Source: a virus
DNA: 31,873 nt
Strand: one strand, 5' to 3'
Virus record (IMG/VR): IMGVR_UViG_3300047352_000022
Coordinates: 1 to 31,873 of that record
The position numbers were made by a program, and so were the translations under genes. This document shows, one piece after another, positions 6,908 to 24,590 of this stretch (position 1 is its first letter; every line of letters begins with the position of its first letter). The notes under the pieces are model-generated. The model searched no databases. It was not told the DNA's origin and saw only the letters and a program-made list of their open reading frames with translations.

Positions 6908-9475
6908 TTAGTCGCTTGATTTACAGAAAGATACTGCATGTCTTACAGCAACATCAACAGTTTGTAGAGCAACAATTCTTACTCCACCTGAAGTTGATAA
7001 TGCATAAGGATCAACAGTAATATCTAGTCCACCATACATACCAATTAATAAGTCTGCAAAGTTACCAAAGTAGAAATCACCACTTGTTACTTGATTACTT
7101 CTAACAACATTATAACCATTCATAGTGTTATCAGGAGAAACAACAAACTGAGCAGTACCAGTAGCCTTTTCAGTTGTTTTTAAAGTACCAAAATCAGCAG
7201 GTCTACAGATGTAAGCTAAAGAACCAGTTAAAGCATTGTCGTTAGCAACAGCACTTTCCATAGCTACTATTTCAGCCCATGTTGGGTTAGCAGCAGCAAA
7301 AGTTGTAGTGTTAATACCTGAAGTACTAGCAATACCTGTTGGTTGACCACTTGAACCTGAACCAGCTAAAGCACCTAAATCAATAGCAGTAGCTATAGAT
7401 TTTGTTAGGTCATCTCTGATTAAGTTCTCAACATCTAATGAAGATTGTTGTAATAAGAGTCTTGTTGCATCAGTAAAAGCACCAATTACTTTAGGAGACA
7501 TTGTTACTGAACCTGAAGTAAATTCACTTTCAGCAGCAGCACTACCTTCTGTAGCAATCCAGCCAGCAGATGAAGCAGCAGTTTTCTTAGGAATTACAAC
7601 ATTTCCTTGTAATCCTCTTAGCATTGTTGCTCCAGCTTGCATTACTGAAGATTCGTTTCTTAATACATCAATAAAATCGCCACCTCTGTAATCTTCAGCT
7701 ATTAAAGTTGAATCATCAGATGAATTGATGTCTCTTTTGCCCCAAGTTCTTAGGACTTCAGCAGGTAACATGATGCCTTGAGCATCTTTACCATACTGTC
7801 TAGCAGCTTCAGCAGAACATTCAAATTCAAATTCTGCATCTCTTTGTGCTTGTCTGTCAGATGGGTTAGCCATAGCTCTAATAGCTTTTACTAGACTGAA
7901 CTCTCTAACTTCTTCTTTAGTCATGCCAATTTCTGAAGGAGTTTCTAAAGGAGTATTGTTAGAAATGTTTTCTAATAAAATTCCTCTAAATTCTGCAACA
8001 GAGATACCATCACTAATTGCTTTATCAGCTAAATCTCTTTTGTTGTGCTTAACAGCTAAATCTATGATTTCTTTTGAATTTCTTTTGAATTCAGCTTTAG
8101 CATCTTCAACAGTTTGAGCTCTAACTTCGTCAAGATTAATATCTTGTTTCTTTTCGTTTTCCATTAGTTTTACCTCAATGTTATTATTTTGTTTATCTTT
8201 ACTACGACCAACACCTACGAGCCTACTTTGATCTGCTGGAACTGATACAGAAGATACTTCCATAGGAGTCCATTGAGCTTTGTAGTAAGTCTCATTGTCT
8301 TGTTCATAGCGTTCTAGTTTATCGATTCGATATCCGACTGATATATTCATGCGTATACCATCTTTTACATCTTCAAATACTTCACGAGCTAAAGCAGATT
8401 TTCCAAATCTAACTACAGCAGTTGTCCTCTTTGCTGTCTCATCTAATTTGAATTCTTCAATTACACCAATTTGCTTGGTCATATCATGGTCAAGCAATAA
8501 TGGTGCTCTGCCTGAATTTATAAACTCCATGTTTATATCTTCAGCAGAATGTCCTAGCACTTCCATGCCAAAACTTCTCTCAACAGGTTCTTCAGAAGAA
8601 ACACCTACACGAACCACTCTTTTGTCCTCATCAAGATAAGAATGTTTAGATAGATCAATAGTTCTATATTTCATAGGCATATCAATTACTTTTCTTTCCT
8701 CATCTGATTCAGACATAGAAACTTCGTCAGTCATTTCTACTTCTTCACCTTCATGTTCTACATCCTCATGCTTTGCAAATTCAACGATAACTTTATCATC
8801 AGTTTCACTCACATTAAGGATATGTCTATCTTCTTTATTCATAGCTTTCTCCTCTTTATTTTTAGTTGATAAAGGATGTCCTTCAGGTAGTAGGTCTGTA
8901 TCATGTTTGCCACTTCTGAACTTACCATTTCTTAAAGCAAATAAGAAACTGTTAATTCTAGCTGCTGCCCATTGTTCAGGACTACTAACTGTTGGTCTGA
9001 CTGAAGCTGGATTAGTTTTATATGCACCAATCCCTCTTTCATAAACTTTTGATAGTGTTGATACGTTAGTTCTTTTTGACTTAACATCACCAACTTCTTC
9101 ATTATGTTCTTCTACTTTATTCTTAATCATTTCAAGAGCCTTGCCTGATACTGCTCTTTCTTCTTCTTTTTTCATTTGATTTACTTTTGTTTCTGACCAC
9201 TTATAACCAGCATCACCACCCCATAATGCCCAAGCTATTCTGCCATTAGAAGGATAGCCTTCTTCACCAGCATTAAAACCTTCTGCTTTCTTATCTACTT
9301 CATGTCTTGAAAAGAAACTAAACATTCTTTTGATAGTTTCATCAGATAAGTTTTCACCAGCTACTATTTGTCTTGCTCTGACAGCACCAACTCTAGTACC
9401 ACCACGACCATGCTCCTCTCTCCAGTCTAAACCCTTTTGAGCTTCGACTTTCATTCCTTCAGTTGGTCTAGCCAT
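6908..9475 (-). CDS. N-domain / HK97 prohead protease / major capsid polyprotein (855 aa)
   Basis: One frame holds three modules. Residues 1-211 form an N-terminal region with a helical first part (MFSFFSRHEVDKKAEGF, GRIAWALWGGDAG) and a second part with PEQWAAARINSFL. Residues 212-437 are an HK97-type (S78) prohead protease: APLLLDHD gives the catalytic His and MNISVGYRI the catalytic Ser, after a very acidic stretch. Residues 438-855 are a full HK97-fold major capsid protein: a helical delta-type scaffold segment, then GNVVIPKK, TEGSAAAESE, GSGSSGQPTGI and the terminal VAVRHAVSFC. The protease would remove the scaffold during head maturation. I chose the ATG at 9475 (behind AAGAGG) over a GTG at 9493; it overlaps the portal stop by 8 nt. 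Both internal module starts have strong ribosome sites (8842, 8164), so shorter products are likely. Confidence 0.9.
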   Translation of the reverse strand: MARPTEGMKVEAQKGLDWREEHGRGGTRVGAVRARQIVAGENLSDETIKRMFSFFSRHEVDKKAEGFNAGEEGYPSNGRIAWALWGGDAGYKWSETKVNQMKKEEERAVSGKALEMIKNKVEEHNEEVGDVKSKRTNVSTLSKVYERGIGAYKTNPASVRPTVSSPEQWAAARINSFLFALRNGKFRSGKHDTDLLPEGHPLSTKNKEEKAMNKEDRHILNVSETDDKVIVEFAKHEDVEHEGEEVEMTDEVSMSESDEERKVIDMPMKYRTIDLSKHSYLDEDKRVVRVGVSSEEPVERSFGMEVLGHSAEDINMEFINSGRAPLLLDHDMTKQIGVIEEFKLDETAKRTTAVVRFGKSALAREVFEDVKDGIRMNISVGYRIDKLERYEQDNETYYKAQWTPMEVSSVSVPADQSRLVGVGRSKDKQNNNIEVKLMENEKKQDINLDEVRAQTVEDAKAEFKRNSKEIIDLAVKHNKRDLADKAISDGISVAEFRGILLENISNNTPLETPSEIGMTKEEVREFSLVKAIRAMANPSDRQAQRDAEFEFECSAEAARQYGKDAQGIMLPAEVLRTWGKRDINSSDDSTLIAEDYRGGDFIDVLRNESSVMQAGATMLRGLQGNVVIPKKTAASSAGWIATEGSAAAESEFTSGSVTMSPKVIGAFTDATRLLLQQSSLDVENLIRDDLTKSIATAIDLGALAGSGSSGQPTGIASTSGINTTTFAAANPTWAEIVAMESAVANDNALTGSLAYICRPADFGTLKTTEKATGTAQFVVSPDNTMNGYNVVRSNQVTSGDFYFGNFADLLIGMYGGLDITVDPYALSTSGGVRIVALQTVDVAVRHAVSFCKSSD
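8165..8176 (-). promoter_or_regulatory. Internal ribosome binding site for a free major capsid protein (start ATG 8164)
   Basis: Within the polyprotein frame, GAGG (8176-8173) stands 8 nt before an in-frame ATG (8164-8162, MENEKKQDIN). That start would give a 418-aa delta-domain plus capsid protein, a normal size for separate HK97-type capsid genes. Confidence 0.65.
8843..8854 (-). promoter_or_regulatory. Internal ribosome binding site for a free protease module (start ATG 8842)
   Basis: GAGGAG (8854-8849) stands 6 nt before an in-frame ATG (8842-8840, MNKEDRHILN). It is as good as the best genuine start sites elsewhere in this genome and falls exactly at the junction between the N-terminal region and the protease. 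Confidence 0.65.
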
Positions 9476-10964
9476 CGTCTTCCTCTTCTCCACCTTGTAT
9501 TTTAGCTTCTACAGGTAGTTTTTGACCAAATGGTTGATAAGCTAATTCAATATCATACTGTTTAGCTAATTCTATTTCTTTTTGATGTTGTTCAAATAAC
9601 TCTTCAGTATCTCTACCATAAGAAGCAGAAATATCAGAATAAGTAAGTGTTCCATTTTGTAAACCTATTACGTTAGCTTGCATTTCTTTTAAAGGATCAA
9701 TCCAAGCAAAACTTCTTGGAATATAATTAACTGATCTAGCAAACTTATCATATTTACCCATTGGTAAATTAATATATCCAGTTGATATAGCCATCTCTAA
9801 CCATGATTGAAATACTGGATTTACAAAATGCTCAATTACAAATTGTTGATATATCTGATACATACTTCTATCTTCTAAAGCACCTTGTCTTATTGAAGAA
9901 TAATTAACAGAAGTTAAATCATTAGATAATGAATGATAAGAAATATTTAAACCTGATGCTATGCTTCTTAAAACACTAGTTGTAAAAGAATCAAATGCAG
10001 ATGTAGGGTGAGTTGGATCAAATGCTTTGAAGTCCATGCCTTGAGGTAGTTGTTCAAATACACCAGCCTGTGCGTTCATTGTTGGATTAAAGGTATCTTC
10101 ATATTCACCATCACCAACATATCCATCACCATCAGGTGAAGTAAAGAAACCCATTTTAGATGCACCAACTCTAGCTGCAACTATTTCTGCTTCTAAATAA
10201 CCATTTAACATTTTCACATTAGCCATAGCTGTAGCAACCAAAGAAACACCTCTAGTTTGTTCTGCCCTAGAAGGTAGGTAAGCATGGATAATCTCATCAG
10301 CAGGTACTCTAATGTGTTGTGCTTGACTTAAATAAACTCTATCGTAAGGATGGTCTTTATATAAATGATAAGCAACTGGTCTGTCATACTTATCTACTTC
10401 AACACCCATCTTGATTCTATTGCCAGTAGCTTTATAAATATCATTTTTATTTTCGTCTAAATGATCTGCTTCTAAAAACTGTAACTGAAAACCAAAAGGA
10501 GAGTTGCTATCTTTTATTTTCCTGATTAATACTTCACCATCTCTACATAGTGATTCAACAAATATTTTCTGACAATCTAAGAATGATAGTCTGCCATTAG
10601 TTGTACAACTTCCGACTTGTCCCCATTCTCTCCAAGCACGTTCAATGAGCAGGTTAGCTCCAATGTCTAAAGAACCATTATCGTTCCTAGCCTTAGAGCT
10701 AACTCTTATGCCATGCTTACCGATAACATTAGATACCATCAGGTTTAAGTATCTAGCAATATAGCTATCGTTTCTTGCTAATTCTCTTGCTCTATCTCTT
10801 AGAATTCTTATGTTATCTTTTATCTCAGCATCAGCACTTGTAGATGTGGTAACAAAATCTGCAAACAATCTGCCAGTATTAGCTCCTGTATAGCTTCTTC
10901 TATATGCTTGTCTTTTCTTTTTTTTAGGTTCGTTAATACCTAATATTCTGTTATACCATGCCAT
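9468..10964 (-). CDS. Portal protein, lambda gpB family (498 aa)
   Basis: The dodecameric vertex ring through which DNA is packaged. The sequence follows the lambda-type portal family: a basic N-terminus (KKKKRQAYRRSYTGA), RDRARELARNDSYIARYLN, VSNVIGKHGIRV, WREWG, LCRDGEVLIRKI, QLQFLEADHLD and later ADEIIHAYLPSRAEQTRGVS. The C-terminus is acidic (GGEEEDDG). The length is normal. The ATG overlaps the upstream stop by one base. The lambda family of portal matches the gpA-type terminase encoded upstream, while the capsid is HK97-type. Confidence 0.92.
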   Translation of the reverse strand: MAWYNRILGINEPKKKKRQAYRRSYTGANTGRLFADFVTTSTSADAEIKDNIRILRDRARELARNDSYIARYLNLMVSNVIGKHGIRVSSKARNDNGSLDIGANLLIERAWREWGQVGSCTTNGRLSFLDCQKIFVESLCRDGEVLIRKIKDSNSPFGFQLQFLEADHLDENKNDIYKATGNRIKMGVEVDKYDRPVAYHLYKDHPYDRVYLSQAQHIRVPADEIIHAYLPSRAEQTRGVSLVATAMANVKMLNGYLEAEIVAARVGASKMGFFTSPDGDGYVGDGEYEDTFNPTMNAQAGVFEQLPQGMDFKAFDPTHPTSAFDSFTTSVLRSIASGLNISYHSLSNDLTSVNYSSIRQGALEDRSMYQIYQQFVIEHFVNPVFQSWLEMAISTGYINLPMGKYDKFARSVNYIPRSFAWIDPLKEMQANVIGLQNGTLTYSDISASYGRDTEELFEQHQKEIELAKQYDIELAYQPFGQKLPVEAKIQGGEEEDDG

Positions 10965-13489: not shown

Positions 13490-13943
13490 CTTCTGCTAAT
13501 TCGTTTAGTGCTTCATGCACTTCTTCTGTTGTTATTAATAATGCTTCTTGGTAATCTTCTGCTGTTATAACTTTATGTGCTATTCTTGAGGGTAGTCCTA
13601 ATAACTTTGCTCTAACGTTAGCACTATAACCAATCCAAGTATCTTCAACTAATTGAGCAGGAATAAGCTCACCCTCTAATTCATTAACCTCTAAAGTAGC
13701 CTTATCTGCTTGTGCTTTGGTAAGTCTTAGCTTCTCGTTATGCAAATCAGTCGTGCTTATATCTTTACCAAATGCTCTTTCTCTTAAATATCTAATATAT
13801 AGAGTTACATTAGTTATTTCCCAACCTTTATTCTTTTCAGGTTTTTTTAAAATATTATCATCTGCCAATCTTCTAACATGTCGTTCAGATAAATCTAAAA
13901 GTTTAGCTATAACTGCTATTGGATAATTTGGTATTTCAGCCAT
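13410..13943 (-). CDS. terS: Terminase small subunit, Nu1-like (177 aa)
   Basis: A DNA-recognition subunit. The N-terminus is a winged-HTH of the Nu1 type (IAKLLDLSERHVRRLADDN, then GWEITNVTLYIRYLRERA). It is followed by an oligomerising helix (LRLTKAQADKATLEVNELEG), the motif LIPAQLVEDTW, and NVRAKLLGLPSRIAHKV as in other small terminases of this family. The C-terminus is highly basic (KYRKRNKQRKSK). It precedes terL and overlaps it by 80 nt, and its start overlaps the methyltransferase stop by 8 nt. The cos site it would bind should lie near or upstream of this gene, but I cannot identify it with certainty. Confidence 0.88.
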   Translation of the reverse strand: MAEIPNYPIAVIAKLLDLSERHVRRLADDNILKKPEKNKGWEITNVTLYIRYLRERAFGKDISTTDLHNEKLRLTKAQADKATLEVNELEGELIPAQLVEDTWIGYSANVRAKLLGLPSRIAHKVITAEDYQEALLITTEEVHEALNELAEDGIPEKYRKRNKQRKSKLETTEKSKD

Positions 13944-15084
13944 TGATTAGTTTTGCTTTTTTACCAGTAAAATCTTCCCAGCGTTTAACAATAACATCTA
14001 CATATATTGGGTCTAATTCCATCATGTAGCATTTTCTAGCTGATTTTTCAGCTGCAATAAGAGTAGCACCACTACCACCAAATAAATCTAGCACTATATC
14101 TGCGTTTTCTGAAGAATATCTTATAGCTCTTTCACATAATTCTACTGGCTTAGCAGTTGGATGGTCTTTTCTAACTTCTCTATCACATATCCACACATCT
14201 CCATCTAAGGTTTTCTGACCACCAAATTCACCATGATATAAAATAAATTCATGTCTTTTATAGAATTTATCTAAATTCTGAACTCTTACTTTTTTATCCC
14301 ACACTATACAAGATTTAGGATATTTTCCTGCTTCATGCATAGCTTCTTCAAAGGCACTAAAACATTTCCAGTTACAACAAAGGTACATAGGAATATCTAA
14401 AACTAGAATTAAAGATAATAAATCTTTTACATTGGATAATGATTCATCTCCTGCAATCTTTTTATGATTCTTTTTTATATCTTGATAATCTATTCCATAA
14501 GGTGGATCAGTAAAAACCATGTCTGCTTTCTTGCCATTCATTAACTTATCAACATCATCAATACTAATGCTGTCACCACACATTAATCTATGATGTCCTA
14601 GTTCATAAATATCACCTAGTTTGCTTTTAGGTTCTTTAGGTGGCTCAGGAACAGAATCTTCATCTGTCTCACCCTCTAATATGGATTCAGTTAAAACAGA
14701 TAGTGCATCTATTTGTTCAGGGGTAAAACCTGTCATGTTTAAATCATAGTTATCTTCTATAAGGTCTTTTATTTCTAAATTTAATAAATCTTTATCCCAT
14801 TCTGAATCCTCAGAGGATTTATTATCCATAATTCTGTACGCCTTTTTTTGTGCGTTAGTTAATCCTTCTGCAATATGTACTGGTACTTTTTTTAAACCCA
14901 ATTGTTTAGATGCAAGCAGCCTAGTATGTCCAGCTAAGACAATCATATCTTCATCAACTACTATAGGCTGCCTAAAACCAAACTCAGCTATGCTGTCTGC
15001 TACCTTATCTATTGAATTAGCGTTGTTTCTAGGGTTTTTATCGTATGCTTTTATATCGTTTATATCTGTATTTTTTATTTTCAT
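13936..15084 (-). CDS. ParB-domain DNA methyltransferase, beta-class N4/N6 type (382 aa)
   Basis: A two-domain protein. Residues 1-110 are a ParB/Spo0J-like domain (KAYDKNPRNN, FRQPIVVDEDMIVLAGHTR, KQLGLKKVPV). Residues 155-382 are an amino-methyltransferase with catalytic DPPY at 193-196, HPTAKPVEL at 308-316 and the AdoMet-binding DLFGGSG at 333-339. The order DPPY before FxGxG is that of the beta class, which makes N6-methyladenine or N4-methylcytosine. No restriction partner is encoded nearby. Its place directly before terS is common in phages and suggests genome protection or marking for packaging. The ATG stands behind AAGGAGAG and comes first after the putative terminator at 15132-15162. 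Confidence 0.9.
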   Translation of the reverse strand: MKIKNTDINDIKAYDKNPRNNANSIDKVADSIAEFGFRQPIVVDEDMIVLAGHTRLLASKQLGLKKVPVHIAEGLTNAQKKAYRIMDNKSSEDSEWDKDLLNLEIKDLIEDNYDLNMTGFTPEQIDALSVLTESILEGETDEDSVPEPPKEPKSKLGDIYELGHHRLMCGDSISIDDVDKLMNGKKADMVFTDPPYGIDYQDIKKNHKKIAGDESLSNVKDLLSLILVLDIPMYLCCNWKCFSAFEEAMHEAGKYPKSCIVWDKKVRVQNLDKFYKRHEFILYHGEFGGQKTLDGDVWICDREVRKDHPTAKPVELCERAIRYSSENADIVLDLFGGSGATLIAAEKSARKCYMMELDPIYVDVIVKRWEDFTGKKAKLING

Positions 15085-15939: not shown

Positions 15940-16169
15940 AAGTTCTCGTAATGTTCTATTAACTTATTAATATACCAAACAGACTTCTGTAAGTCTTGTA
16001 TATTGCTATCTTTGTAAGATTCTCTCCAAATGTATTTTAATGCTGCTCCCTTTAAATATCCCTTATATTCATCTTGAGTTAGTGCAGCTTTAATTGCATC
16101 AATACATTCAATAGACCCCTTCCGATAATGAGGTGGCGAGTTCACATAATCAATCTTTTCTTTTTTCAT
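15936..16169 (-). CDS. DUF3310-like protein (77 aa)
   Basis: A 77-aa protein with the DUF3310 pattern: an N-terminal VNSPPHYRKGSIECIDAIKA, a middle YLKGAALKYIWRESYK and a final LQKSVWYINKLIEHY helix. The family is widespread in phages and is loosely annotated as a nucleotide-kinase-like protein; its biochemical role is not established. No P-loop is visible here. It sits between the HNH endonuclease and the small HTH gene, overlapping the latter by 4 nt, with one base separating it from the HNH gene. Confidence 0.8.
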   Translation of the reverse strand: MKKEKIDYVNSPPHYRKGSIECIDAIKAALTQDEYKGYLKGAALKYIWRESYKDSNIQDLQKSVWYINKLIEHYENL

Positions 16170-17157: not shown

Positions 17158-17257
17158 CTTTCTTCTCCTTCTTAAATATCTTATCCCAGTTATCATCTAT
17201 CTTTTTCCTATCTTCTCTACGTCTACGCGAACCTTTACCACCATGCCATTTAGACAT
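17123..17257 (-). CDS. Small basic protein, KWHGGKGS type (44 aa)
   Basis: An ATG at 17257 opens 44 codons: MSKWHGGKGSRRRRED, then DDNWDKIFKKEKK and a Lys-rich end. The W-x-GGKGS start and the DNWDKIF motif occur in small proteins of other marine phages, whose role is unknown. The start overlaps the previous stop by 8 nt and the end overlaps the 62-aa gene by 35 nt in another frame. It is too short for most gene callers, but the motif makes it a real gene. Confidence 0.7.
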   Translation of the reverse strand: MSKWHGGKGSRRRREDRKKIDDNWDKIFKKEKKDANKTKTKCKD

Positions 17258-17744
17258 AAGTAACCTTCTGTATATTTACTGACTTATCTAATTTAGATAA
17301 TAATTCTTTTGCTTTCATAAAATCATCAGGAATACATCTCAATAATTCTTCTATGCTGAATATCATTATATCCTTCTCATCTTTATGTATCATTTCTAAT
17401 GCTGGTTTCTCATCATCAGCATCACAAACTAAAGCAGTTTTGTTATCAAAGTTAAAGCACTTAACATTTGGCTGGATCATAATATAACCACTTTCTTCGC
17501 ATTTAATATTTAATTGCTCATAAGCTCTTATCATCATCTCAACCATTTTAAGTTTCTGAGCAGTAGTATCACTATATAAAGAATCTTTTAATATCTGTTC
17601 TGCTTTACAAAACTTAATCTCAAACTGAACACCAACCATCTTAAAGATTCGTTTACGATTACCCCACTTCACAAAGGTTTCTAACTCATAAACCCTGAGT
17701 TCTTTTAATTTATCTTCTAATGTTTCATCTAAATATGTTTTCAT
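17250..17744 (-). CDS. Hypothetical protein (164 aa)
   Basis: I do not recognise this protein. It is mostly helical in its first half (TLEDKLKELRVYELETFVKW, KAEQILKDSLYSDTTAQKLK) with a beta segment ESGYIMIQPNVKCFNF, then NKTALVCDADDEKPALEMI and a C-terminal helical part IEELLRCIPDDFMKAKELLS. It has no signal peptide, membrane segment or catalytic motif that I can see. It follows the primase-helicase gene after a 129-bp gap filled with repeats, so it could be the first gene of a sub-transcript and may have a role in replication. Confidence 0.7.
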   Translation of the reverse strand: MKTYLDETLEDKLKELRVYELETFVKWGNRKRIFKMVGVQFEIKFCKAEQILKDSLYSDTTAQKLKMVEMMIRAYEQLNIKCEESGYIMIQPNVKCFNFDNKTALVCDADDEKPALEMIHKDEKDIMIFSIEELLRCIPDDFMKAKELLSKLDKSVNIQKVTYV

Positions 17745-17764
17745 AAAACTCCGAACATTTAGTA

Positions 17765-17801
17765 GGAAGTAAGGGAAGTATTACATACTTCCTTCCCTTC
17801 C
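17765..17801. repeat. Long imperfect hairpin
   Basis: Arms 17765-17781 and 17785-17801 flank a 3-nt loop. The inner eight pairs (GGAAGTAT with ATACTTCC) and the outer five (GGAAG with CTTCC) are perfect; 14 of 17 positions pair by Watson-Crick rules. No T-run follows on the minus strand. It lies 21 nt upstream of the start of the 164-aa gene. Confidence 0.7.
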
Positions 17802-17873
17802 TTCCGACCTATTTATTGTTTTTCATCAAAAACTTCCTTAAAACTTCCGACACTTCCTTCCGACACTTCCGAC
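17801..17873. repeat. Array of CTTCCGAC repeats
   Basis: Four exact copies of CTTCCGAC (GTCGGAAG on the coding strand) lie at 17801-17808, 17844-17851, 17857-17864 and 17866-17873, with further CTTCC half-copies between and beside them. Spacing is irregular (13, 9 and 43 nt between starts). The last copy abuts the stop of the primase-helicase gene. Such iteron-like arrays are typical of replication origins or protein-binding regulatory sites. Confidence 0.65.
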
Positions 17874-19820
17874 CTAATTATCATTTGTTTTAGGAAAATT
17901 AGGTGGCATATCCTTAAAATCTTCATGCTGATAACCCCAATCAGGATCATATACAACCTTATCTTTTTTCTTTAATGCTTCTAAATGCTTTCTAATTGTG
18001 TCTGCTTTTATGTTTTCACCTTTAAGATTTTCTACATATCCTTCTAAATCTGCTGGTTGTAAATATATGCTTTGTGGAGAAGCACTATCTTTTATCATAG
18101 CTACAGTCCTTAATGCATTTGAAGTTCTTTGTTGCATAGGTGGTAAACCAGTTTTCTTTTTAACTTTTAATTCAATATCAGTTTCTTCTAAAAATCCTGA
18201 TGTAAGATTCAACCCTTCACCTATAATCTGTACTTCTTTAAACATAAAGTTCTTAATAGCCATACCTTGACCATCTTTATTCAATGTCTGCTCAAAAGAT
18301 ACAAGCATTTGTTCATCAACAAAACCATTAACTAATTGATCATCTCTTTCTACTTTAAATTCATAATCTAATGATGCACCCATTACACTTGATCCTCTAC
18401 CTCTTGTAGAGTTGCCATGACCAGTATGATGTACTAAACATACACAACACTTATAATGTGATATAAGTCCATCTAATTTATTAATAAAGTTACCTACATC
18501 TTCAGCACTATTTTCATTACCTACAAAGTTACGCTGGAATGTATCAATAACAATCATACCTATCTCACCTACTTGCTGTGTCAATGCTTCTATTTCTTCC
18601 TCTAACATCTTAAAATCATCAGGATCATTAACTCTAACTGCTCTATCTGATAGATATAAAGGTACGTTATTTAGATCAAACATACCTTGTTGCCAAGCTG
18701 CTAATCTTCTTTTAACACCTCTCTGACCTTCACCACATACATACATGACTGGTTTAGCGTATGCTTTATTACCATAAAACCTTTCACCTTTAGCAATAGA
18801 AGCTGCCATAGCTATAGCAATAAAGGACTTACCACTCTTGGGAGCTCCAAAGATACACATCAATGATTCCTTTTCTACTACATCTTCTATGAGCCAGTCA
18901 GGATTATCTACTTGTCTTAATACCTCATCTGCTCTTGTAAAGGTAACAGCACCTTTGGGTTTCTTTTCAGTACAGTTAATTATGTATTCTTCTAAATCTT
19001 TTGACTCTTTAAAATCTCCCCTTATATATGCATCGTATAGATCATCTTTCTCATTAAATGATTCAGGTGGTTGTGCTACTTTTACTTTACAACCATTCTT
19101 CTTTAGCATCTTAGCTATGTCATTTGCACACTTAATTCCAGCTTCATCATTATCAGGAAATATCCAAACCTCCCTGCCAAATATAGGACTCCAATCTGCT
19201 TTCTCCCAGCTGTTAACCCCACCATGCCAAGTACAACTATCACCCTCATAAATCGCTTCTGAGCCACTTAGAGCCTTCTCACCTTCATTTATGATGATAG
19301 GTTTAGTAGGGTACTTATTTGTGTAATAAATAGGAAGTAAGCCTTCAGGTCGCTTCATAGACCAAGTTTGATCATTATTAAGGGTAAATGGTGCGTATTT
19401 CTGTTTAATAAAATGACCTTCAGGAAATCTCATTACCATGAAGTTATCAGCATACTTGACCTTCACAATAGCTTGTTTGTAAAGGTCAATCATCTGCTGT
19501 CTAGAGAATGATCTAGCACTACTTGCGGTCTTTGTTTTTAAGGGGGAAAAACCGCTTAATAAGGAGTCATTAGATTGTAATGCTAGATCATAACCAAACT
19601 GTTTTAAAACTGTATTGACATCTTGATTCATGTGTTTAATTAAATCTATTAATCCACCACCTGTATCATTCTCAAAATCAAACCAAGTACCTGCTTCTAA
19701 GTTAAGAACAAAAGAACCCTTGCGACCCCATCTTAATTCATTAGATGAGGTGCTAGTAGGTTCACCTAGTAATTGCTTTGCAACTTCAGGTGCTATTCTT
19801 TGCCAATCTACTGATTGCAT
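17874..19820 (-). CDS. TOPRIM primase / RepA-type (RecA-fold) helicase (648 aa)
   Basis: A bifunctional replication protein. The N-terminal part has WFDFENDTGGGLIDLIKH, typical of phage primases, then a TOPRIM domain with IIINEGEKAL (E179) and WIFPDNDEAG (D223/D225). The second half is a RecA-fold ATPase of the RepA/AAA_25 type: GAPKSGKS (325-332) is Walker A, GMIVIDTFQ (421-429) Walker B, and LVHHTGHG a sensor-like motif. A winged-helix-like C-terminus follows (ADTIRKHLEALKKKDKVVY). There is no clear zinc-binding CHC2 finger. It overlaps the SSB-like gene by one base (TGATG), so the two are coupled. It would prime and unwind for a host polymerase, since none is encoded here. Confidence 0.9.
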   Translation of the reverse strand: MQSVDWQRIAPEVAKQLLGEPTSTSSNELRWGRKGSFVLNLEAGTWFDFENDTGGGLIDLIKHMNQDVNTVLKQFGYDLALQSNDSLLSGFSPLKTKTASSARSFSRQQMIDLYKQAIVKVKYADNFMVMRFPEGHFIKQKYAPFTLNNDQTWSMKRPEGLLPIYYTNKYPTKPIIINEGEKALSGSEAIYEGDSCTWHGGVNSWEKADWSPIFGREVWIFPDNDEAGIKCANDIAKMLKKNGCKVKVAQPPESFNEKDDLYDAYIRGDFKESKDLEEYIINCTEKKPKGAVTFTRADEVLRQVDNPDWLIEDVVEKESLMCIFGAPKSGKSFIAIAMAASIAKGERFYGNKAYAKPVMYVCGEGQRGVKRRLAAWQQGMFDLNNVPLYLSDRAVRVNDPDDFKMLEEEIEALTQQVGEIGMIVIDTFQRNFVGNENSAEDVGNFINKLDGLISHYKCCVCLVHHTGHGNSTRGRGSSVMGASLDYEFKVERDDQLVNGFVDEQMLVSFEQTLNKDGQGMAIKNFMFKEVQIIGEGLNLTSGFLEETDIELKVKKKTGLPPMQQRTSNALRTVAMIKDSASPQSIYLQPADLEGYVENLKGENIKADTIRKHLEALKKKDKVVYDPDWGYQHEDFKDMPPNFPKTNDN

Positions 19821-20443
19821 CAGAATGGTATATCATCATCTGTTAATTCATTCTGACTTACCATCTCAGCTACTTTATCGCCAAGACCATCATTAGGACT
19901 CTTAAATGTGTCCTCTACTGGTGCTTCCTGATCTGTATACCAACTTGGTATCACAAACTCAGGACTTCTAGGTGCAAATTTAGCAAAGCTAAAGGTAAGC
20001 TCTGAAGAATTACCCATGCCAACCTGAATTGGTTTTGATCCCTCGAACTTAACAACAGGCAAGGAATCAGAACTTGCATCCATTTGATTCCAAAAACTAG
20101 CCAGTATGCTGTTAAATGCACTTGATTCAGCGTAAGTAAATCTTTGCCACAGATAAGCATGTTGAGCTCCTTGAGGAAATACCCAAGCACTAAATGCTCT
20201 TTTAAAATCATCTGCTGGTTTAGAATCAACTACACCAAATTTATTATCCCATTGATATTCAAAACCTTCAGCTTTTGTATAACGACCCCAGCCACTTTTA
20301 AAAGTAGCAGGATCAAGCTGTAGATATTGGAAATCAAGAGGAGTTTCACCATTTGCAAAAAACTTTTGCTGCATGGTTTTAAAAGCAAGATAAACTTGCT
20401 GACTCTCACTATTGGGATTACTCATCCCACCTAATATATCCAT
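19820..20443 (-). CDS. Single-stranded-DNA-binding-like protein (207 aa)
   Basis: The C-terminus is acidic and ends LTDDDIPF, the hallmark tip of bacterial and phage SSBs that docks replication and recombination partners. Residues about 25-150 could form an OB-like beta domain (FDYQYLQL-type strands, SGWGRYTKAEGFEYQWDNKF, PVVKFEGSKPIQVGMG, LTFSFAKFAPRS), but it is not a standard Ssb sequence. It sits directly before the primase-helicase and after nuclease genes, fitting a replication/recombination role. The ATG at 20443 follows TAGGAGAG. A RecT-like annealase is not otherwise visible, so this protein may also work with the RecE-like exonuclease. Confidence 0.65.
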   Translation of the reverse strand: MDILGGMSNPNSESQQVYLAFKTMQQKFFANGETPLDFQYLQLDPATFKSGWGRYTKAEGFEYQWDNKFGVVDSKPADDFKRAFSAWVFPQGAQHAYLWQRFTYAESSAFNSILASFWNQMDASSDSLPVVKFEGSKPIQVGMGNSSELTFSFAKFAPRSPEFVIPSWYTDQEAPVEDTFKSPNDGLGDKVAEMVSQNELTDDDIPF

Positions 20444-23985: not shown

Positions 23986-24357
23986 TTATTTTTTGGTTTT
24001 TTCGTAGGTTCTAAGTGTTGACATACCAAGCATAGCCATAACGATTGTAGATAATTGGCTAAAGTCAAACTCAGGCGTTTCAAATTGAATTGCATTGACG
24101 ATAAGAATATATTGAATAATAGGTTCTAAGATAAAGTGATAACCGATTGAAAAACCACATATCCAACCAATAGCAGGACGCCACCCTGAAACGAATATAT
24201 TACTGTGTTTTGCTTCAACTTTATTTACTTCTAATTGTGCTTTGTTTAACGAAATTATTTCTTTCTCAAGTTCATGAGATAGTTTTATTTTTAAATCTTT
24301 ATCGGCAACAAATTTATCTAAAATGTCACCAACAGGTTGGATAAGTTTATCTATCAT
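23986..24357 (-). CDS. Holin, GTA/3-TM type (123 aa)
   Basis: A charged N-terminal helix of about 50 residues (LSHELEKEIISLNKAQLEV) is followed by a hydrophobic region: SGWRPAIGWICGFSIGYHFI, then EPIIQYILIV and a last segment LSTIVMAMLGMSTLRTYEKT. The W-R-P motif and the terminal RTYEK are those of the GTA-holin 3-TM family. It lies directly before the lysozyme gene (one base between stop and ATG), which confirms the lysis role. Its start overlaps the 78-aa membrane protein gene by 4 nt. Confidence 0.83.
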   Translation of the reverse strand: MIDKLIQPVGDILDKFVADKDLKIKLSHELEKEIISLNKAQLEVNKVEAKHSNIFVSGWRPAIGWICGFSIGYHFILEPIIQYILIVNAIQFETPEFDFSQLSTIVMAMLGMSTLRTYEKTKK

Positions 24358-24590
24358 AATTTAATAATCAAGGTGATAATGCCACTTAATAGTATTAATA
24401 TTACTGCACCCAAACCACCTTTAATAGACCAGTCAATCTTGTTAAGTTTAGCTTCTGTTTTACCATCTAAATCTTTAACTTGTTCTTCTATTTTTTTTAG
24501 TCTATTCCAGTTTTGAGTCCATCTTTCACCGCATTGGATTTCGTGTTTTTCTAATTCAACTCCGATATCTTGTGCGGTGACTCTAGGCAT
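24354..24590 (-). CDS. XhlA-like membrane protein, possible antiholin (78 aa)
   Basis: Residues 1-52 form a charged coiled coil (NWNRLKKIEEQVKDLDGKTE), and residues 55-77 are one membrane span (GGLGAVILILLSGIITLII). This is the layout of XhlA/holin-associated proteins encoded before holins. It overlaps the holin gene (ATGA) and the gene before it (TAATG). It could regulate lysis timing or be a second holin. The role is inferred from topology and context. Confidence 0.6.
   Translation of the reverse strand: MPRVTAQDIGVELEKHEIQCGERWTQNWNRLKKIEEQVKDLDGKTEAKLNKIDWSIKGGLGAVILILLSGIITLIIKL

Follow-up and report, generated by a model that had tools for sequence, protein, structure and literature searches.

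Does the 129-bp gap behind the primase-helicase gene of an uncultured virus contain the origin of replication, as proposed in an earlier note on this sequence, or is it a site of transcriptional or translational regulation, as the same note allowed? The analysed stretch, here called the window, is the 31,873-nucleotide record IMGVR_UViG_3300047352_000022 of IMG/VR. Scans of the window identified terminase, portal, head, tail and lysis genes, and thus it belongs to a tailed phage. It has no nucleotide relatives in the collection of named phages. Most of its ORFs, and the longest ones, are on the minus strand.

The gap (17745-17873) carries four of the five copies of CTTCCGAC found in the window, at positions 17801, 17844, 17857 and 17866 of the plus strand. 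Only 0.04 copies are expected window-wide, and none of 100 shuffles yielded five. Hence the four exact repeats described previously are confirmed, and so are the numerous half-sites: positions 17700-17900 contain nine CTTCC and two GGAAG. The reported hairpin indeed has a loop of 3 nt; however, its arms (17764-17781 and 17785-17802) are not 17 bp long, but comprise 18 nt each and are imperfect, with 83% complementarity. With RNA parameters, region 17762-17805 is predicted to fold at -19.5 to -20 kcal/mol. On the minus strand, the helicase stop codon is followed by GTCGGAAG repeats, a spacer of about 24 bp that is rich in A+T (0.68 over the 25 bases preceding the hairpin as found by the script), another GTCGGAAG, the hairpin, a degenerate copy and the start of the 164-aa ORF. 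The distance between the last left and the first right repeat is 32 bp. No sigma-70-like promoter and no terminator-like site was found in the gap. GC skew is negative across the whole window without inversion anywhere, including 17.8 kb; it was rejected as an origin signal and neither supports nor weakens the origin reading. The fifth copy of CTTCCGAC (10609-10616, inside ORF 9468-10964) and a lone CTTCCGA at 16119-16125, also within an ORF, are probably due to chance.

Table. Features in and around the gap, with positions in the window and, where given, the strand and the basis of assignment
Feature	Position	Strand	Basis
Primase-helicase gene, 648 aa, proposed initiator	17874..19820	-	Pfam, PHROG, profile, model
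Predicted winged-helix domain, helicase residues 540-648, proposed iteron reader	17877..18203	-	AlphaFold2, Mantel test, parsimony
Left iteron set, three GTCGGAAG and one degenerate AAGGAAG, directly after the helicase stop codon	17833..17873	-	
AT-rich spacer, candidate DNA-unwinding element	17809..17832	-	from sequence
First iteron of the right-hand set, beside the hairpin 5' arm (gene orientation)	17801..17808	-	
Hairpin, both orientations of the iteron half-site present in its arms, candidate site of priming or loading	17764..17802	-	
Degenerate copy, CTCCGAA on the plus strand, just ahead of the 164-aa ORF start	17749..17755		from sequence
164-aa ORF, downstream of the array (gene orientation), linkage control	17250..17744	-	
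207-aa SSB-like ORF, upstream of the helicase gene	19820..20443	-	C-terminal DDDIPF, position in roseophages

The primase-helicase consists of an N-terminal primase-like part, a TOPRIM domain, a RecA-fold (AAA_25) helicase and a predicted C-terminal winged helix. Its only Pfam matches are AAA_25 (4.6e-36) and Toprim_2 (2.8e-5), with no match to DUF927 or D5/Primase_Cterm; it matches PHROG 906/239. Neither Pfam nor PHROG indicated an archaeo-eukaryotic primase and SF3 helicase. The profile search gave one sequence relative of solved structure, RepA of RSF1010 (1g8y, E 4.5e-9). The full-length model (pLDDT 77.7, pTM 0.43) resembles Twinkle, T7 gp4 and RepA. Its top Foldseek rows, 7t8b, 6n9x and 5ikn, have E-values of 1e-14 to 1e-13 with low whole-chain TM-scores of 0.26-0.44, and TMt against RepA (1nlf) is 0.73. 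A scan of 30 window proteins gave no match to a DNA polymerase proper, apart from the helicase's hit to a PHROG named DNA polymerase/primase.

The 207-aa protein has no family match at E 0.001 in Pfam or PHROG. It ends with DDDIPF, presumably the C-terminal tail of an SSB, and the ORF at its position in roseophages is annotated as an ssDNA-binding protein. The earlier note placed both replication genes next to the gap. This holds for the primase-helicase gene, which adjoins it, whereas the SSB-like gene lies beyond the helicase and does not touch the gap. The 164-aa protein has no Pfam or PHROG match and no relative in the named phage collection; it is kept beside the array in nearly all relatives, without tracking the repeat word. 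Elsewhere in the window, ORF 13936-15084 encodes a ParB N-terminal domain (ParB_N) fused to an N6/N4 DNA methyltransferase. A 78-aa ORF (24354-24590) beside the holin and endolysin genes weakly matches a PHROG named hemolysin (E 3.5e-4) and probably encodes a lysis protein.

Viral contigs were scanned twice and genome contigs once, which yielded 112 loci, including the window, that each carry the terminal part of a helicase relative (identity of roughly 46% and above). The downstream ORF is present in 111 of them, and 84 combinations of helicase and gap are unique. The gaps are 99-149 bp long (median 130.5). All 84 unique gaps contain significant repeats (dinucleotide shuffle, p<0.05; 82 at p<0.01), compared to none of the 84 control stretches inside the helicase gene. 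The absence of repeats at this place in relatives had been named earlier as evidence against an origin; they are present throughout. The order of array, spacer and hairpin is also retained, and the hairpin scores of the 84 relatives (minimum 6, median 8.75) exceed those of shuffled sequences (median 5, 95th percentile 7).

The repeat words themselves differ: GTCGGAAG, AAGGAAG, CAGGGAA, CGGAA, GGTTTGG, GGATTGG and GTGTGTAA were observed. The word changes in all copies of a gap at once, including those in the hairpin arms, and in several relatives and classes the copy near the next start codon often changes with it. The copies changing in concert are spread over approximately 120 bp and have both orientations. 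In loci of the GGAAG and GGTTTGG classes the direct repeats are spaced by 11-12 bp, and the distance of 32 bp between the left and right repeats recurs in the CAGGGAA and CAAGGAA/CGGAA classes. The best autocorrelation lag deviates in other cases, being 13 in five of six A1 loci, 20-22 in ten of twelve CAGGGAA loci and 8 in seven of thirteen GTGTGTAA loci. Several classes can occur in one metagenome sample, for example in 3300025853 (CAGGGAA in L029, AAGGAAG in L046, GGATTGG in L092, GTGTGTAA in L150). One relative with a GGTTGG-type array, L157, lies on a contig of 32 kb that was assigned to a Flavobacteriaceae MAG by binning; the contig being phage-sized, this is a weak hint at the host.

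Word-spectrum distances were compared with protein distances by Mantel tests on 55 non-redundant loci (97% filter), taken from the 70 of 84 having a full-length helicase and an upstream ORF. The correlation is highest for the helicase C-terminus, approximately 100 residues from position 540 (r 0.885), followed by the rest of the helicase (0.746), and is 0.328 for the upstream protein and 0.326 for the 164-aa neighbour. The partial correlation of the C-terminus given the rest is 0.719, and that of the 164-aa neighbour given the C-terminus is -0.023. A weak link between the N-terminal part and the word persists when the C-terminus is controlled for (0.117, p 0.002). In windows of 50 columns, tracking falls with distance along the helicase gene. 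However, the last full helicase windows have 0.86, and the first 50 residues of the gene across the gap only 0.41; since this fall is one-sided, closeness alone does not explain the tracking.

The trees of the four proteins or protein parts agree with this. Seven hand-labelled word classes require six changes on the tree of the helicase C-terminus, the minimum possible, against eight on the N-terminal tree, 11 on the tree of the 164-aa protein and 14 on that of the 207-aa protein. By this measure, neither neighbour tracks the word. The window and L025 have different words; their helicases share 95% identity over residues 1-539 and 40% over the remainder, and at the DNA level the identity is 0.81-0.99 up to nucleotide 1600 of the helicase gene, 0.44-0.67 from there through the gap and 0.79-0.88 in the next gene. 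The window and L030 (85% and 52% in the same protein regions) have the GGAAG core in common. Judging from these comparisons, the repeat word and the proposed C-terminal reader domain were most likely swapped together among relatives as a cassette.

The AlphaFold2 model of this domain, built on 55 sequences, is a winged helix (pLDDT 83.9) with helices at 19-35, 47-50 and 64-76 and a beta-hairpin of strands 80-83 and 87-90. Foldseek with the domain model gave no match below E 0.001; its upper rows include the winged-helix regulators ToxR, LexA and MntR. The VIA-align Z-scores against winged-helix PDB chains are 7-9, which is middling for a common fold. The domain of P4 alpha is absent from the best 50 rows of the fold comparisons, which is uninformative either way. 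The most class-specific of 106 positions, 70 and 73, are both in the third (recognition) helix. However, this helix as a region is not enriched in class-specific residues (mean difference 0.39 vs. 0.49 in helix 1). A search for the domain outside helicases retrieved only the window's own close family, seven loci.

The same layout is found after the primase/helicase gene of the cultured roseophages CRP-823, CRP-821, CRP-811 and CRP-831. The words are around TTTGTAGT in CRP-823 and CRP-811 and TTTATAC in CRP-821 and CRP-831. The helicases of CRP-823 and CRP-821 are 97.5% identical before the last 110 residues and 67.3% identical in them, and their words differ, although both phages infect one host, Roseobacter strain FZCC0197. 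Conversely, pairs with a common word are closer in the last 110 residues than before them: 98.2% vs. 89.0% for CRP-823 and CRP-811, 99.1% vs. 90.6% for CRP-821 and CRP-831. The roseophage paper mentions a replication module; its main text contains the word "repeat" nowhere and "origin" once, as "originate" (PMC12629253).

A scan with the CRP-823 helicase produced 76 loci with 72 usable rows, the four named phages among them; 43 are non-redundant, and all but L350 have a significant array (42 of 43). In this set the word correlates with the C-terminus at 0.766 and with the rest of the helicase at 0.668, and the partial correlations are 0.538 for the C-terminus given the rest and 0.216 (p 0.001) for the rest given the C-terminus. 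In the 26 loci with a downstream ORF the latter value is -0.059, and that of the neighbour given the C-terminus is -0.155. The hairpin apex is CTWTAG or a close variant in 35 of the 43 loci. Its flanks pair over at least 3 bp in 27 of the 35, and the stems are many and different. This suggests that the structure of the hairpin is retained even as the words are replaced. In L181 (3761-3946), L183 (3739-3913) and the roseophage-type loci the apex N-CTWTAG-N' is conserved and the arms follow the repeat word. A conserved apex on varying paired stems is a possible structure-specific priming signal.

Among 15 phages with similar helicases, the window included, eight have a 3' array and seven do not. 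Significant arrays lie 3' of the primase genes of Salicola phage CGphi29, Halomonas phage H4907 and Stenotrophomonas phage S1. By the same score, none was found in Pseudomonas PG1 (repetitive by eye, although not significant), Microcystis JY30, Mycobacterium Solosis, myovirus ctyzp037, Gordonia Wooper and two Vibrio phages. The exact two-unit GTCGGAAG 17-mer occurs in 16 viral contigs. Six belong to the window's family, seven have arrays 3' of other primase/helicase-type genes (L003, L007, L010, L011, L012, L013, L015; proteins of six were scanned), and three (L001, L005, L008) have only two copies, inside long ORFs.

Of the control words, the reversed one occurs in 33 contigs, two of them with at least four copies, and the shuffled one in 31, 14 of them with at least four. 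Among the 23 contigs with at least three copies of the shuffled word, 22 were examined, and in 19 the array is 3' of a long ORF; all eight of the preceding genes that were scanned encode D5_N. The idea that GTCGGAAG itself is special was thus rejected: a shared word is no evidence, the placement is. Short-unit iteron arrays 3' of unrelated D5_N/VapE/DUF5906-type helicase genes were seen in L003, L007, L010, L011, L013, L015 and L272-L301, which suggests that the 3' placement of origins is widespread in phages and prophages. In L012 (758-934), GTCGGAAG copies lie 3' of the gene for an AAA_25 helicase that is only distantly related (33% identity over residues 287-551), and the use of this word is probably convergent.

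Several known replication systems combine some of these elements. The P4 alpha helicase is of another superfamily, SF3, and the P4 origin is not known to lie just 3' of alpha. Like the window protein, P4 alpha joins a TOPRIM-type primase, a helicase and a winged helix, predicted in the window and binding origin repeats in P4, in one polypeptide, according to the relevant passages of PMC4234260. The same passages describe the oriV of RSF1010, with separate RepA, RepB' and RepC, iterons, and stem-loops for priming. The window has a RepA-like helicase, by fold and sequence relation only, iterons, and a hairpin kept across word classes, but the helicase, the primase-like part and the proposed reader are one polypeptide. 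A separate RepC-like iteron binder was not encountered, as the domain that follows the word is part of the helicase itself and the neighbours do not track the word. ORF904 of pRN1, also described there, has a C-terminal winged helix and an essential 3' stem-loop that diverges among relatives in sequence but not in structure. A stem-loop 3' of the replication gene and a predicted C-terminal winged helix are found in the window as well; the archaeo-eukaryotic primase, the SF3 helicase and the lack of iterons in pRN1 are all different.

In SaPI Rep and SCCmec Cch2, as excerpts of PMC7581432 describe, iterons directly 3' of the helicase gene are bound through the C-terminal domain; Cch2 binding needs direct rather than inverted repeats, and a self-loading helicase is the model. 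The window likewise has direct repeats of a short unit immediately behind its helicase gene; its C-terminal domain, the predicted winged helix, co-varies with the word. However, the SaPI and SCCmec helicases are of the DUF927, D5/Primase_Cterm type rather than TOPRIM and RecA-fold (AAA_25), and in the window and its relatives a hairpin built of the word is present. In PLE, according to parts of PMC8263062, the DNA-binding domain of RepA_N and the ori iterons swap together while the rest is conserved, with cognate specificity demonstrated by experiment. The exchange in the window's relatives is like that in the system of PLE RepA_N/ori modules and Odn nuclease, but PLE is a satellite with an unrelated RepA_N domain at the N-terminus of a protein without helicase, whereas here the domain is C-terminal on a helicase. 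Exchange of a wHTH between near-identical genomes of Gordonia phages was reported for the initiators, a different protein, and is not connected to origin sequence in the portion of the text covering it (PMC10684548). TOPRIM together with a RecA-fold helicase is the fold of T7 gp4 and Twinkle. By analogy, the best reading is that the proposed origin would work like those of P4 alpha, SaPI Rep, PLE RepA and RSF1010, on a different helicase fold. No report of such an array, or of co-variation between the word and the helicase domain, in RecA-fold phage primase-helicases was found in the open-licence PMC literature.

Co-variation of the word with the predicted DNA-binding domain of the helicase is what would be expected of an iteron origin read by the helicase. 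Identical co-variation would also arise if the winged helix bound the array as an operator controlling its own operon or the 164-aa gene, with replication starting elsewhere, and in several classes a copy does lie just ahead of the start codon of this gene. However, the absence of promoter- and terminator-like sites from the gap, together with the failure of the downstream gene to track the word, makes a regulatory site, the alternative in the earlier note, less likely. An array with an AT-rich spacer and a hairpin is a known origin layout of helicase initiators, and the 3' placement recurs with unrelated D5/VapE helicases; thus we consider the operator unlikely. A translational switch, with the hairpin and repeats in the leader of the 164-aa mRNA, would fit a hairpin whose end is some 20 nt ahead of the start codon and for which good folding as RNA is predicted, and a degenerate copy overlapping the region ahead of this codon. 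But the 164-aa protein does not follow the word (partial correlation -0.02; 11 changes), and the spacing of about one helical turn in several classes points to double-stranded DNA, leaving this explanation very unlikely.

It is highly improbable that the array has no protein reader and that its words change through slippage, hitchhiking with the adjacent 3' part of the helicase gene. The weakening of the tracking with distance along this gene agrees with such linkage, but the drop is one-sided, the copies change in concert over approximately 120 bp and in both orientations, and the roseophage family repeats the pattern. A partition or packaging site, suggested by the ParB_N-methyltransferase gene, has hardly any probability: this gene is approximately 3 kb off, and the word tracks the helicase domain abutting the array.

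The candidate origin of the earlier note is thus supported by the arrays in all 84 relatives and by words that co-vary with the predicted DNA-binding domain. Quite probably, as far as can be judged from sequence comparison, the gap is the replication origin of the phage, and its iterons would be read by the phage's own T7-gp4/RepA-like primase-helicase as initiator. Speaking against this are the residual link between the N-terminal part and the word, class-specific residues that are not concentrated in the recognition helix, repeat periods other than 11 in some classes, and the seven phages with similar helicases but no 3' array. From the observed patterns we infer physical binding, melting, loading, priming and firing of the origin in the following way. 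The C-terminal winged helix would bind the direct repeats, which, being about one helical turn apart, would present one face of the DNA. Subunits gathered at the repeats could then open the AT-rich spacer, be loaded there as a helicase ring of the RecA fold and synthesize primers. The hairpin, with arms made up of additional repeat copies, may provide a second set of binding sites or, like the ssi of RSF1010, a signal for priming on single-stranded DNA. The host polymerase is proposed to extend the primers, because the scan of 30 window proteins identified no DNA polymerase.

These data suggest that origin recognition, usually taken as conserved, changes fast in these phages. As for the driver of the fast change, PLE and Odn are the one worked example in the literature considered. 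A tentative generalization, which we regard as possible rather than probable, is that many dsDNA phage origins are private words, with the 3' iterons and their reader forming an exchangeable cassette that recurs in unrelated helicase families, and that the words diversify because sharing one is costly when phages, satellites or origin-directed nucleases meet in a cell. Replicon interference or origin-directed attack could explain the word differences. If this is true, phage replicons would fall into incompatibility-like classes even on one host, as with CRP-821 and CRP-823. The natural swaps, between the window and L025 and between CRP-823 and CRP-821, make the specificity directly testable, and origins in uncultured phages would become findable from sequence alone, each paired with its reader.
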